In this document: piece by piece, positions 27,925 to 34,200 of the stretch | Layout: each line of letters starts with the position of its first letter | How positions within the stretch are numbered: the stretch's first letter is position 1 | Assembly: GCA_014859275.1 (NCBI GenBank) | Contig: JACUUO010000011.1 | Location: 1 to 37,285 of the forward strand | Origin: Actinomycetota bacterium | Lineage (GTDB): Bacteria > Actinomycetota > Aquicultoria > Aquicultorales > Aquicultoraceae | Reading direction: 5' to 3' | Length of the DNA: 37,285 nucleotides | The notes under the pieces: generated by a model | What the model saw: only the letters and a program-made list of their open reading frames with translations | Told to the model about the DNA's origin: nothing | Databases searched by the model: none | Made by a program: the position numbers and the translations under genes

Positions 27925-28458
27925 GTGGACTTAAAGAGAATCCTTCCGATCGCTCTAATTGCTGTAGCCATACTTACCCTTATTGTCTATGCAGCTTATT
28001 TCGGGCGAACTGAGGCACCCGTAGGGGATCAGACGAGCACGCCAAGTAAATACACCCCTGGCCAGATGACCCCACAAGCCCCCGTAGCGTCAATACCGGA
28101 TAAACCAGTTAGCTCCAAGGAGCCCGCAACGCTCGTTCCAGAGGACACCGATCTGAAACAATACTGCGAGAAGTATTATGCAGCCTGGAAGAAAGACGAA
28201 TGGCAGACGGTATACGATATGCAGCCCCTCGCAAAAAAGCAGCAAGAGGATGTAAATGACTTCTCCGAGAGACTTAAATCCTATGGACTGGTCGGCTATA
28301 CAGTGGGCAAGCCTCAGATAAACGGCCATGTCGGAACCGTTATCGTTACGCTTGATATGGGCCAGAATGGCACGATGGCAACTCATTGGACATTTGTTAA
28401 AAACGATGAGGGCCGGTGGACGGCCCAGAATTCAGAGACCAGGATGAGCCCGCAATAG
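27925..28458 (+). CDS. Membrane-anchored protein with an NTF2-like extracytoplasmic domain
   Basis: 177 residues: a membrane anchor at residues 5-26, a Pro/Ser/Thr-rich linker (about 30-70), and a C-terminal domain of about 100 residues beginning DLKQYCEKYYAAWKKDEWQTVYDM, a pattern typical of NTF2-like folds that ends in THWTFVKNDEGRW. No lipobox cysteine is visible, so it is anchored by an uncleaved helix or has a cleaved signal. Function unknown. The start is GTG with AAGGAAG 7 nt upstream. A good terminator follows. Confidence 0.78.
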   Translation: MDLKRILPIALIAVAILTLIVYAAYFGRTEAPVGDQTSTPSKYTPGQMTPQAPVASIPDKPVSSKEPATLVPEDTDLKQYCEKYYAAWKKDEWQTVYDMQPLAKKQQEDVNDFSERLKSYGLVGYTVGKPQINGHVGTVIVTLDMGQNGTMATHWTFVKNDEGRWTAQNSETRMSPQ

Positions 28459-29045: not shown

Positions 29046-30935
29046 TTATGCCACTTCTATCTCTTTACATCTATGGTCGCCAATTTCACCTCTTTCAAAC
29101 ATCGATACGAAGACCTCAGCAACCGCAGGATCAAACTGACTACCTATACCCTTCTTTATCTCGGCAATTACCTTGTCATATGGCAAGCCATCCCTATAAG
29201 GCCTGTCTGAAATCATTGCCTGGAAAGCATCGGCCACGGCTAAAATACGGGCCTCAATAAGGATATCTTCGCCCTTAAGACCGTTGGGATACCCTGTCCC
29301 ATCATATCTCTCGTGGTGTTGAAGCACAGCCTCGGCAAGATCCTTAAGATCGCCAACCGGCTTTAATATTTGATAACCCTTAAACGGGTGAAGTTTGATC
29401 TCATCGTACTCTGTCCGTGTCAGGTTTGTTTGCTTATATAATATACTGCCAGATATTCCAATTTTACCTACATCATGGAGGAGGCCGGCCACATAAACCT
29501 GCTTCACCTTCTCCGCACTCAATCCCATGGCAGTGGCTATATCCTTTGCCAAAACTGCTACTTCCTCTGAGTGACCGCATGTATACCTATCTTTTGCCTC
29601 GACCGCCTTAACGAGCGATTCGATCGTCTCTAGATAGACATGTTCAAGCTTGTTAAATAATAAAGCATTCTCAATTGCAAGTGCTGCCCTGGAGCCGAGA
29701 GTCCCTATTAGATCAATCTCTTTTTCACTGAATGAATCATCGGTCCTCTTTCCTACTGCAATAGTGCAAGCCCTATCCTGTCTTAGTGTAACCGGAAGCA
29801 TTGCGACCGACTCGATTCCCATATCGCTAAAATCTAGCTTAGCGCTATTAAACTCGGCCCTTTTTAGAATCTTTATCTCCCCTTCATCTAATAGACCCTG
29901 AATTAATTCATAATCCCTATCGAGCCTCCCCCTATTTATAGCACTAATAGCACCACAACCGCTGGAGGTATACTCAGCAACCAATCGCTGGCCCCTATTT
30001 TCAAACAAAGCTATCGCACCCCAGTCCATTTCCAATGATGCGACTATTCGATCTGCGATCTCATTGAGAAGCTCTTCAATGCTTAACGTTGTTAATCCTG
30101 CCTCAGATATATCCTCAAGTGCGCTCAGCCTCATCCTCGCATCTCTCTCATCCTCATAGAGCTGTGCCTTAACAATTGCGGTCGTAATCTGGTTAGCCAT
30201 ATAACCGATCAGCGTCATATCGTTGGCATCAATGCTCTTAGCTTCGGTGCTTCCAACAGTTATAGCTCCAACAACTTCCTCTTCGTAGCGAAGAGGGGTT
30301 CCGACCACGGATTTAATTCCGAGCCTGACGACCAGCTCGGATTTCTGCGCCATCGGGTCCGACGTGATGTCTTCAAGGTAGACCGACCGGCCCTCCTTTA
30401 CTACGATGCCTCAGACCTCTTGACCGAGCTGCAGGGTTAATAATTTTTTGGCCAGATCTTCCGGGATATTGCCATATGCGGTTGCCAACTCCAGGATGCT
30501 CTTCTTTTTATTCAGGAGATATACGAAGCCGATATCAAAATTACTAATTCTTATAACCGATAGGAGGGCATTATGTAAGATCTGTGGAAGATGCATTGAT
30601 TGACCAACAGCCAGAGCTACACCATTTAAGGCCTCAAGTTCCTTCTCTCTTCTTCTGGCTTCCTCTCTTATCTCTCCATATATGGCCCTGTAAATAAGCA
30701 AAAACCAGAGAATGGCTATTGAAACCCTAAAATAGATCTCGGCTGTGATGAATATGTCGCTCCTGCTGTTATGGTAAAGCATGTTAGTTGATGCCAGAAA
30801 TATCAGGCAGATGCTGACAATAATTATCGCTTTTTTGGTGTAAGAGCCTGTTCTATCTTTGCCCTTGCTCCACACTAGAAATATCGAGGTGGCGCTGAGA
30901 ACAATCGCTCCTAGATTAGTAAGAAGAACTATCAT
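29046..30935 (-). CDS. Membrane GAF-GAF-HD-GYP protein with in-frame UGA in the first GAF domain (candidate selenoprotein)
   Basis: Read through one TGA at 30411-30413 (residue 175), the gene codes for 629 residues: three membrane helices (about 4-22, 34-54, 61-87), a coiled linker, GAF1 (about 105-255), GAF2 (about 275-430), and an HD-GYP domain with HD in LLHDVGKIGI and GYP in HHERYDGTGYPNGLKG. HD-GYP domains hydrolyse cyclic di-GMP. The TGA falls in the conserved GAF strand LGQEV-U-GIVVKEGRSVYLEDI, where homologues often have a small residue or Cys before the Gly. A hairpin with a GGUC loop lies 22 nt after the UGA. The downstream ATG at 30353 has no ribosome site. The start overlaps the stop of the small membrane gene (ATGA). 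A broken gene is the alternative. Confidence 0.78.
30373..30400 (-). promoter_or_regulatory. Candidate bacterial SECIS element in the GAF-HD-GYP gene
   Basis: Downstream of the UGA at 30411-30413, a 5-bp upper stem (GGGCC with GGUCU, two G-U pairs) carries the tetraloop GGUC (30388-30385). Below it an A-A mismatch separates a 4-bp AAGG/CCUU stem. The loop begins 22 nt after the UGA. GGUC is the apical loop of the E. coli fdhF SECIS that SelB binds, and the spacing lies within the accepted 16-37 nt. Confidence 0.7.
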
Positions 30936-31231
30936 TTAAGCTCTTCTGCCACCTTTCTATATCTATACGCAGCCATGGTTATCGGTAATGCAGAGAGTAG
31001 TAGCGTTATATGCTCAATAAACTCTAAAGGTACTGGATCAAGCGATTTCAGGGCGCTCGCAGCCGTTGAAATAAAAAAGAAGCTAAAACTGGCCGCGAAA
31101 TATCTGAAGTATGGGTTCTCTTTTAAATATCGCACACCAATTGCGGCCAACAAGGAAATTGCTATACAAAAAGTAGCAATCACTTCGTCATTAGGTGCTA
31201 GATCGAAAGAGTTTAATTGATTCAGTTCCAT
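30932..31231 (-). CDS. Small membrane protein coupled to the GAF-HD-GYP gene
   Basis: 99 residues with three hydrophobic helices (about 17-37, 45-63 and 70-88) and a short basic tail. Its TGA stop overlaps the ATG of the GAF-HD-GYP gene (ATGA), so the two are co-translated. The partner also begins with three helices, so together they could form one six-helix sensor unit. I chose the ATG at 31231 with GGTGG 5 nt upstream; the frame is open to a GTG at 31240. I do not recognise the family. Confidence 0.75.
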   Translation of the reverse strand: MELNQLNSFDLAPNDEVIATFCIAISLLAAIGVRYLKENPYFRYFAASFSFFFISTAASALKSLDPVPLEFIEHITLLLSALPITMAAYRYRKVAEELK

Positions 31232-31300
31232 AAGATCCACCCAAGTGCTATTAAGTATTAAGAATATCGGCTTAAGACAAGCATTTCTTTATATTAAACA

Positions 31301-33132: not shown

Positions 33133-33712
33133 GGCCGACCACCCCGGGCTCCTCGGGGTCCTTACGACCGCAGCCTATTCTGACGTAGACTTCTGGATAT
33201 TTTGGGCCACCCCAGCCGATCTCGTTCCATGCATATGGATGGGAATAGTAGAAGGAGGCGGCCACTCTGATAATCTCCTGAAAAGCCCTTTGAGCAGGGA
33301 TTACTTTCCAGGTCGTCGAATTGGAGTCGCCCTTTGATAGCGCACCTAAAACCTCATCCTGTGCCGAAGTATCGATCTTGATAAAGCGCTCACCATAGCT
33401 TGATTGCGCTTCTTCATCCAACGCCCTTATAAACATCCTCCATAATTCCTGCATCTGCGGCATATCCTCGTATCTTGTACCATCGGTAATATTCTTTGCA
33501 AGCTTTTCGTCTACAAAGGGAACCACAGGGATTCTATCATCACTATCCTGGGGCAAGATTCTGGAGATTGCAACCTCGAGGGTCTCCGCCTCCTCACTGC
33601 TGAAGAACTTAATCTGCGGCACCGAAGTCATTCTGCGCTCGATGATCTGCCGGGTATGCGGATCCCAATATCCTTTACGATCCAATACATTGTAATCCGG
33701 ATATTCCTGCAT
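33119..33712 (-). CDS. Gluconate 2-dehydrogenase subunit 3-family protein
   Basis: 197 residues matching the gamma-subunit (subunit 3) family that pairs with GMC-type dehydrogenases: FFSSEEAETLEVAISRILPQD, a helical middle, and the Tyr/Trp-rich end YYSHPYAWNEIGWGGPKYPEVY. No signal peptide or Tat motif is apparent, unlike many homologues. I place the start at the ATG at 33712 with GGAGG 5 nt upstream; it overlaps the stop of the membrane protein gene (TGATG). The end overlaps the GMC gene by 14 nt. The three genes form one tightly coupled operon. Confidence 0.88.
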   Translation of the reverse strand: MQEYPDYNVLDRKGYWDPHTRQIIERRMTSVPQIKFFSSEEAETLEVAISRILPQDSDDRIPVVPFVDEKLAKNITDGTRYEDMPQMQELWRMFIRALDEEAQSSYGERFIKIDTSAQDEVLGALSKGDSNSTTWKVIPAQRAFQEIIRVAASFYYSHPYAWNEIGWGGPKYPEVYVRIGCGRKDPEEPGVVGHVRE

Positions 33713-34200
33713 CAAAACCTCCGGAAATAGACGGCAATGATTCCTACCAGACTGATCAAGGACAGGCTTAAAGGAAACATCGGTGGCGGCCCAACCATAA
33801 TGTTATCGAGGTTCCAGCCACCAACCTGACGCACAATCCCCTGGATATGAAAGAATAGGCCGGAAAGGCCCATCAATAGGGTGATTATCAGCAATACGCC
33901 ATAGATGTCCAAGGCCAGATTCTGAAAAACTAGAGCGGTAATTCCAGTAATGATAACAACCGGAAGATAAAGAATCGGTCCCCACATCCATATACGGTGG
34001 AACGCCCCACGATAATGAAGAATGATTATCTGTACCCATAATATGGCAAACAGCGCAGTAATAAGTACGATCACCCAAGCTGTCAACGGCAACCCAAATA
34101 GGATCAAATCATTACACCCCCAGTGCAGATTGCAGAAGGGCCTAACTGATAGGTTATATTTATCCCAATAAAGGCGGTTTGTATCATAAGGCCAGTGCAA
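33712..34200 (-). CDS. Integral membrane protein of the GMC dehydrogenase operon
   Basis: Up to 162 residues with about four hydrophobic segments (roughly 32-60, 74-94, 98-118 and 140-158). The family is not recognised. The start is unclear: the longest frame begins at a TTG at 34200 without a ribosome site; an in-frame TTG at 34107, just before the first helix, has GGGGGTG upstream. The N-terminal 30 residues of the longer form contain a CNLHWGC segment. Coupling by TGATG to the subunit 3-like gene suggests it is the membrane anchor or quinone-side partner of the dehydrogenase; this is inferred from position only. Confidence 0.72.
   Translation of the reverse strand: MHWPYDTNRLYWDKYNLSVRPFCNLHWGCNDLILFGLPLTAWVIVLITALFAILWVQIIILHYRGAFHRIWMWGPILYLPVVIITGITALVFQNLALDIYGVLLIITLLMGLSGLFFHIQGIVRQVGGWNLDNIMVGPPPMFPLSLSLISLVGIIAVYFRRF

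Follow-up and report, generated by a model that had tools for sequence, protein, structure and literature searches.

GAF-domain sensors include NreA, which senses nitrate, and DevS, which binds heme. The GAF fold also underlies the free methionine-R-sulfoxide reductases (fRMsr; MsrC in E. coli), in which Cys60 of the Thermoplasma enzyme is important for activity but is not the nucleophile (PMC6211008), and it occurs together with an HD-GYP domain in PmGH of Persephonella marina, a c-di-GMP phosphodiesterase (PMC4159591). As for selenoproteins, a 2026 catalogue comprises 119 prokaryotic families and subfamilies, most of them redox enzymes and none with a GAF or HD-GYP domain (PMC13188914). An earlier note on the locus described here had known of no selenoprotein with either domain, and the catalogue agrees, with the caveat that an unverified in silico ‘histidine kinase’ selenoprotein candidate has been mentioned (PMC8318568). 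Within the open-licence literature, the words ‘selenoprotein’ and ‘HD-GYP’ co-occur (once and twice) in one paper, on the genome of Nautilia profundicola.

A probable read-through gene for a GAF-GAF-HD-GYP protein

The window analysed here is the whole 37,285-nucleotide stretch of contig JACUUO010000011.1 from an Actinomycetota genome (GCA_014859275.1). On its minus strand, the frames 30935-30411 and 30353-29046 share one register, with a gap made up of a single TGA (30413-30411) and 19 sense codons—exactly the arrangement, and the coordinates, that the earlier note had given. Reading through the gap yields a product of 629 aa (30935-29046), in which UGA175 is the sole interruption and the terminal stop is TAA. 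The claim that the joined frames form one continuous GAF domain also stands, as Pfam GAF_2 matches with E=4e-27 and the best stretch, residues 116-254, spans the UGA; toward the C-terminus, HD_5 matches the HD-GYP domain with E=1e-37. As judged from these features, the gene encodes a predicted membrane-anchored GAF-GAF-HD-GYP signalling protein, laid out as follows:

29046..30935, minus strand: putative selenocysteine-containing GAF-GAF-HD-GYP gene, 629 aa, with UGA175 read as selenocysteine (Sec) (read-through translation, Pfam, eight orthologues with the same UGA codon)
30681..30935, minus strand: three predicted membrane helices, residues about 1-85 (Kyte-Doolittle scan; AlphaFold helices 2-22, 29-53 and 60-112)
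30174..30590, minus strand: GAF domain 1 (GAF1), residues 116-254, containing Sec175 (Pfam GAF_2; AlphaFold pLDDT 83.6; Foldseek GAF matches)
30411..30413, minus strand: putative Sec UGA codon, residue 175 (LGQEV-U-G; identical codon in 8/8 orthologues)
29667..30083, minus strand: GAF domain 2 (GAF2), residues 285-423, containing Cys390 (Pfam; conservation)
29121..29615, minus strand: HD-GYP domain, residues 441-605, with metal ligands and HHERYDGTGYP intact (Pfam HD_5; alignment to PmGH, 4mcw; invariant columns)

In the alignment to PmGH, the HD-GYP metal ligands H455, H487, D488, H516, H540, H541 and D569 are all present along with HHERYDGTGYP, and the ligands are invariant in the orthologues. 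The place of PmGH E185, the third-metal ligand of the trinuclear subgroup, is taken here by Tyr451 (Y-T-x-G-H), and we therefore assign the domain to the Y/F subgroup, which is predicted to be binuclear (PMC4159591). Activity and substrate can only be inferred from the family: hydrolysis of c-di-GMP, or of another cyclic dinucleotide related to it, is most likely, and c-di-GMP itself is not certain because the best-scoring solved relative by sequence is a 3'3'-cGAMP phosphodiesterase, with PmGH next.

Conservation of the in-frame UGA

We searched 60 related genomes with the read-through protein and recovered orthologues in seven others of the same family (the Candidatus Aquicultor family, made up of uncultured bacteria), 55-61% identical over their full length and one of them split across two contigs. 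Every copy, including that of the window, has exactly one internal stop, always TGA and always at the same codon (GQEV-UGA-G; 8/8 genomes). The other HD-GYP and GAF matches listed for these genomes, which are paralogues, have no internal stop. All eight orthologues belong to one bacterial family, and four are close relatives that exceed 90% identity in the C-terminal part. The window's genome is a draft in 299 contigs, and drafts of this kind leave room for the TGA being an assembly or base-calling error, or the mark of a pseudogene. A base-call error, which the earlier note had named as a finding that would refute its reading, is excluded because eight independent assemblies share the TGA; the frames are moreover intact, with protein-level conservation on both sides, and we consider the chance of an error or pseudogene to be negligible.

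No further orthologue, with or without the UGA, emerged from a GAF1-only search of 36 genomes of the class and 397 of the phylum, and neither a Cys nor a UGA orthologue was found outside the family in the 397 phylum genomes or in a wider genome-contig collection, the scan of the latter being limited because, of the two seed peptides, one was written with Cys in place of UGA. The UGA motif pattern also matches 11 phylum genomes outside the family; these sites were not inspected, and we treat them as chance because the GAF search gave no UGA-bearing GAF match outside the family. A DNA pattern search of viral contigs gave no match. Separately, one HD-GYP match outside the family (G052:C9:31455-32189) has an internal TGA.

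The earlier note had proposed asking whether close homologues carry Cys or UGA at residue 175, and the answer is UGA in all eight, with no Cys orthologue found. The nearest GAF domains without the UGA carry Ala, Val or Pro in its place, so the gene is not one side of a Sec/Cys pair within its family; Cys occupies the position only in the distant GAF domain of fRMsr.

A candidate SECIS element under synonymous constraint

Downstream of the UGA lies a hairpin that the earlier note had recognised by its GGUC loop, and both the stem and its spacing were confirmed:

30376..30397, minus strand: putative SECIS hairpin, AGG.GGGCC[GGUC]GGUCU.CCU in the window's genome (folds, pair counts, codon invariance); apical loop 30388-30385, invariant codons CGG-TCG-GTC at 30389-30381

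A stem of the form RRRCC[GGUC]GGUCY, with its loop starting 22 nt past the UGA, is present in 8/8 orthologues; the 5 bp of the upper stem are conserved, and the three pairs of the lower stem, beyond an A-A or A-G mismatch, are less constant. In each of the eight, stretches of 47-60 nt containing the hairpin have a folding energy no higher than -11.8 kcal/mol, and the element meets the published bacterial SECIS model in having a 4-nt loop that starts with GG at 22 nt from the UGA (PMC13188914). Taken alone, the hairpin of a single sequence is weak evidence for a SECIS: the fold energy of the window's copy is unexceptional for its composition (z=-0.4), stem covariation is weak (most pairs are invariant, leaving too little variation to count), and an Rfam scan of the region gave no relevant match. 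Since the energy is not significant, we relied on codon conservation as the main evidence instead.

Among the seven full-length orthologues, 202 invariant amino-acid columns have degenerate codons, and the codon itself is invariant in just 8 of them. When only four- and six-fold degenerate codons are considered (125 invariant columns), just four remain invariant—V174, directly before the UGA, and R183-S184-V185, whose codons CGG TCG GTC form the GGUC loop and the 3' stem. Synonymous differences arise at a rate of 0.61 per pair overall, as against 0/30 in these three codons, and by shuffling, three invariant codons in a row anywhere in the 125 columns have a probability of about 1e-4. Synonymous constraint and the shared UGA together make a strong case, inferred from alignment, that lifts the putative SECIS far above chance. 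The earlier note would have been refuted by unrelated residues at this position in homologues and no conservation of the hairpin, and neither is what the orthologues contain.

These observations also bear on whether the UGA might be a true stop that splits the gene, its second half being translated by termination and reinitiation at a start codon just past the UGA. Several orthologues do have a GTG or ATG two to three codons past the UGA, with AAGAGG or something similarly rich in purines ahead of it; however, there is no start codon for 20 codons after the UGA in the window's gene and for 40 in that of genome G005, and it is on these two genomes, without any nearby start, that we reject reinitiation. 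The ATG at 30353 has no purine-rich site, consistent with the earlier note's statement that the downstream ATG lacks a ribosome site. A break here would furthermore cut through the GAF domain, the 19 codons in between show conservation at the protein level, and reinitiation leaves the invariant CGG-TCG-GTC hairpin codons unexplained; we regard a true stop as very improbable.

Selenocysteine machinery in the genomes

A search for the Sec machinery, the first check that the earlier note had suggested, found selD, selA, selB and selC together in the window's genome (contig C138, 7341-11881). The tRNA-Sec (selC) has the anticodon UCA, and selD itself contains a UGA, as does the formate dehydrogenase FdhA of the same genomes. 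In the window's own genome the FdhA SECIS reads GGCC[GGUCU]GGCC, its loop 18 nt downstream; stem bases differ in some other copies, and the SelD loops are of GGG type. Global reassignment of UGA can be ruled out because TGA also terminates ordinary genes: 6/27 long ORFs of the window end in it, a count that includes both interrupted genes (the one described above and a GMC oxidoreductase gene, below).

Two other family genomes are incomplete in this respect. G007 (97% complete) has two UGA-containing FdhA genes (L078, L089) and does not have the Sec-GAF gene; nothing in it passed the cut-offs for SelB or SelD, nor was a strong tRNA-Sec detected, probably on account of an assembly gap, or else of recent loss. 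SelB, SelD and tRNA-Sec were likewise not detected in G010 (77% complete).

Given the conserved UGA, the invariant hairpin codons, the sel operon and a UGA-containing FdhA with the same GGUC loop, Sec insertion is very likely, and decoding of UGA175 by the cell's SelB and tRNA-Sec at an in-frame GGUC-loop SECIS is strongly supported. None of the three findings that the earlier note had named as refuting its reading was obtained, and that reading is largely upheld. Without bench data, and arguing from sequence alone, we hold that UGA175 is almost certainly decoded as selenocysteine; that this decoding takes place in a GAF-GAF-HD-GYP signalling protein is a claim in which our confidence is high, again with no bench data.

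Position of Sec175 and possible functions

In the AlphaFold model of GAF1 (mean pLDDT 83.6), helix 173-181 stands behind strand 167-169 and has Sec175 in its first turn; as modelled, and with no distances measured, this helix closes the ligand pocket of the GAF domain. Among the PDB neighbours of GAF1 in Foldseek are GAF domains of PtsP, one GAF domain with bound cAMP, PmGH and free methionine-R-sulfoxide reductases. In E. coli MsrC the alignment places the Cys of GRGVCG (the GVCG motif) opposite Sec175; in the Thermoplasma enzyme the counterpart, counted from a phmmer offset, is most likely Cys60. The fRMsr nucleophile, the Cys of HIACD, is Val in GAF1. Besides Sec175, the only residue of this kind that is invariant in the family is Cys390 in GAF2, GAF1 having no other invariant Cys; Cys390 is a possible partner of Sec175.

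The mechanism we prefer, in our view slightly more probable than not, is that GAF1 acts as a redox or electrophile sensor controlling the HD-GYP phosphodiesterase; this, like the redox- or peroxide-sensing switch that the earlier note had inferred, rests on inference, with no data on the sensing chemistry, the signal or what becomes of the selenol. Under the influence of the helix dipole the selenol of Sec175 would stay ionised, and the residue may then enter a reversible reaction with an oxidant or electrophile, candidates being peroxide, polysulfide and a thiophilic metal. The GAF dimer would change as a result, and the long linking helix would carry that change to the phosphodiesterase and switch it. 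That Sec175 is a selenium-based sensory switch, with a reaction in the pocket directly setting the cyclic-dinucleotide level, is likewise an inference, to which we give even chances. With the UGA located ahead of both GAF2 and HD-GYP, synthesis of the full-length enzyme would also require a supply of selenium.

This last point raises the possibility that UGA175 is Sec and that its purpose is mainly translational, tying phosphodiesterase production to selenium supply through a residue without sensory chemistry. When decoding fails, nothing beyond the membrane part and half a GAF domain is made, and other GAF domains work with Ala, Val or Pro at this position, both of which fit such a role; against it, the position is the pocket site of a functional Cys in the free methionine-R-sulfoxide reductases, and Sec is retained in 8/8 orthologues, so that purely translational control seems to us improbable.

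Alternatively, UGA175 could be Sec and GAF1 a selenoenzyme, such as one that reduces a small oxidised metabolite, or a Sec-liganded metal or cofactor site, coupled to HD-GYP. The resemblance of the fold to the free methionine-R-sulfoxide reductases, with Sec175 aligned to their GVCG Cys, speaks for this, but the Val in place of the nucleophile, the lack in GAF1 of an invariant Cys besides Sec175, and the absence of an fRMsr family match in the NCBIfam scan all speak against it, and we consider it unlikely. Identity with fRMsr itself is rejected, since the nucleophile Cys is missing despite the Sec at the GVCG position. Sensing of redox state or electrophiles by Sec175 remains the reading we favour.

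Genomic neighbourhood and a second in-frame TGA

Two features lie upstream of the Sec-GAF gene on the same strand:

30932..31240, minus strand: small membrane protein, 102 aa, its stop overlapping the start of the Sec-GAF gene (ATGA); a conserved upstream partner (synteny; BLASTP 44% to the copy in genome G004)
33715-33119 and 33132-31579, minus strand: gluconate-2-dehydrogenase-type cluster, comprising subunit 3 and a GMC oxidoreductase, respectively

In G006 and G008 (L026, L022), the small membrane gene seems to have lost a part and to be joined to the N-terminal end of the Sec-GAF gene. Two proteins without a Pfam or NCBIfam match are kept in several family genomes: one of 162 aa (33712-34200), before the gluconate-dehydrogenase-type subunit, and one of 177 aa (27925-28458), on the opposite strand.

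The GMC gene has an in-frame TGA of its own (32562-32560), exactly where every homologue read, even at 41% identity, keeps a Cys; this is the first Cys of C-x5-C-x3-C, in a stretch aligning with the large subunit of fructose dehydrogenase. This TGA is found only in the window's genome. It possibly marks a second selenoprotein with Sec at an iron-sulfur ligand (a Sec/Cys pair); it may just as well be a nonsense mutation in a gene undergoing decay, because the hairpin there is also present in a Cys homologue and because the homologues beside the Sec-GAF gene have an internal deletion in G005 (L023), a frameshift in G010 (L024) and only a remnant in G004 (L025). The Sec-GAF gene is intact in these three genomes despite the damaged neighbour. 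We set the GMC TGA aside as unresolved and do not count it in support of the Sec-GAF case.

Comparison with known systems

If the Sec175 switch is real, the protein would be the first well-supported selenoprotein with signal transduction as its job, the qualifier being necessary because of the histidine kinase candidate (PMC8318568). Selenocysteine in the sensor of a second-messenger phosphodiesterase would extend selenium biology into signalling and give selenium a direct route to c-di-GMP control, presumably of motility or attachment. A further implication is that bacteria which use Sec may contain GAF and HD-GYP genes wrongly annotated as truncated.

GAF1 resembles GAF sensors of the NreA/DevS type at the level of sequence, but the DevS residue aligned with Sec175 is not Cys, and GAF1, unlike heme-binding DevS, has no invariant His for heme among the orthologues. 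With fRMsr/MsrC (3mmh, 3ksf, 4mmn) it shares the GAF fold and the alignment of Sec175 to the GVCG Cys; those are stand-alone enzymes with a nucleophile Cys, whereas GAF1 has Val and is embedded in a signalling protein. PmGH (4mcw, PMC4159591) is similar in having a GAF domain joined to HD-GYP by a long helix, conserved metal-ligand His and Asp residues, and HHExxDGxGYP. It differs in its single GAF domain, in E185 with a tri-iron site, and in that no selenocysteine has been reported, whereas the Sec-GAF protein has two GAF domains and a Tyr. The catalogued selenoproteins (PMC13188914), as well as FdhA and SelD of the same genomes, likewise have an in-frame UGA with a SECIS inside the coding region, and FdhA has the very GGUC loop seen here; what sets the Sec-GAF protein apart from the catalogued families is its GAF and HD-GYP domains. 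Its novelty is thus a new combination of two known kinds.
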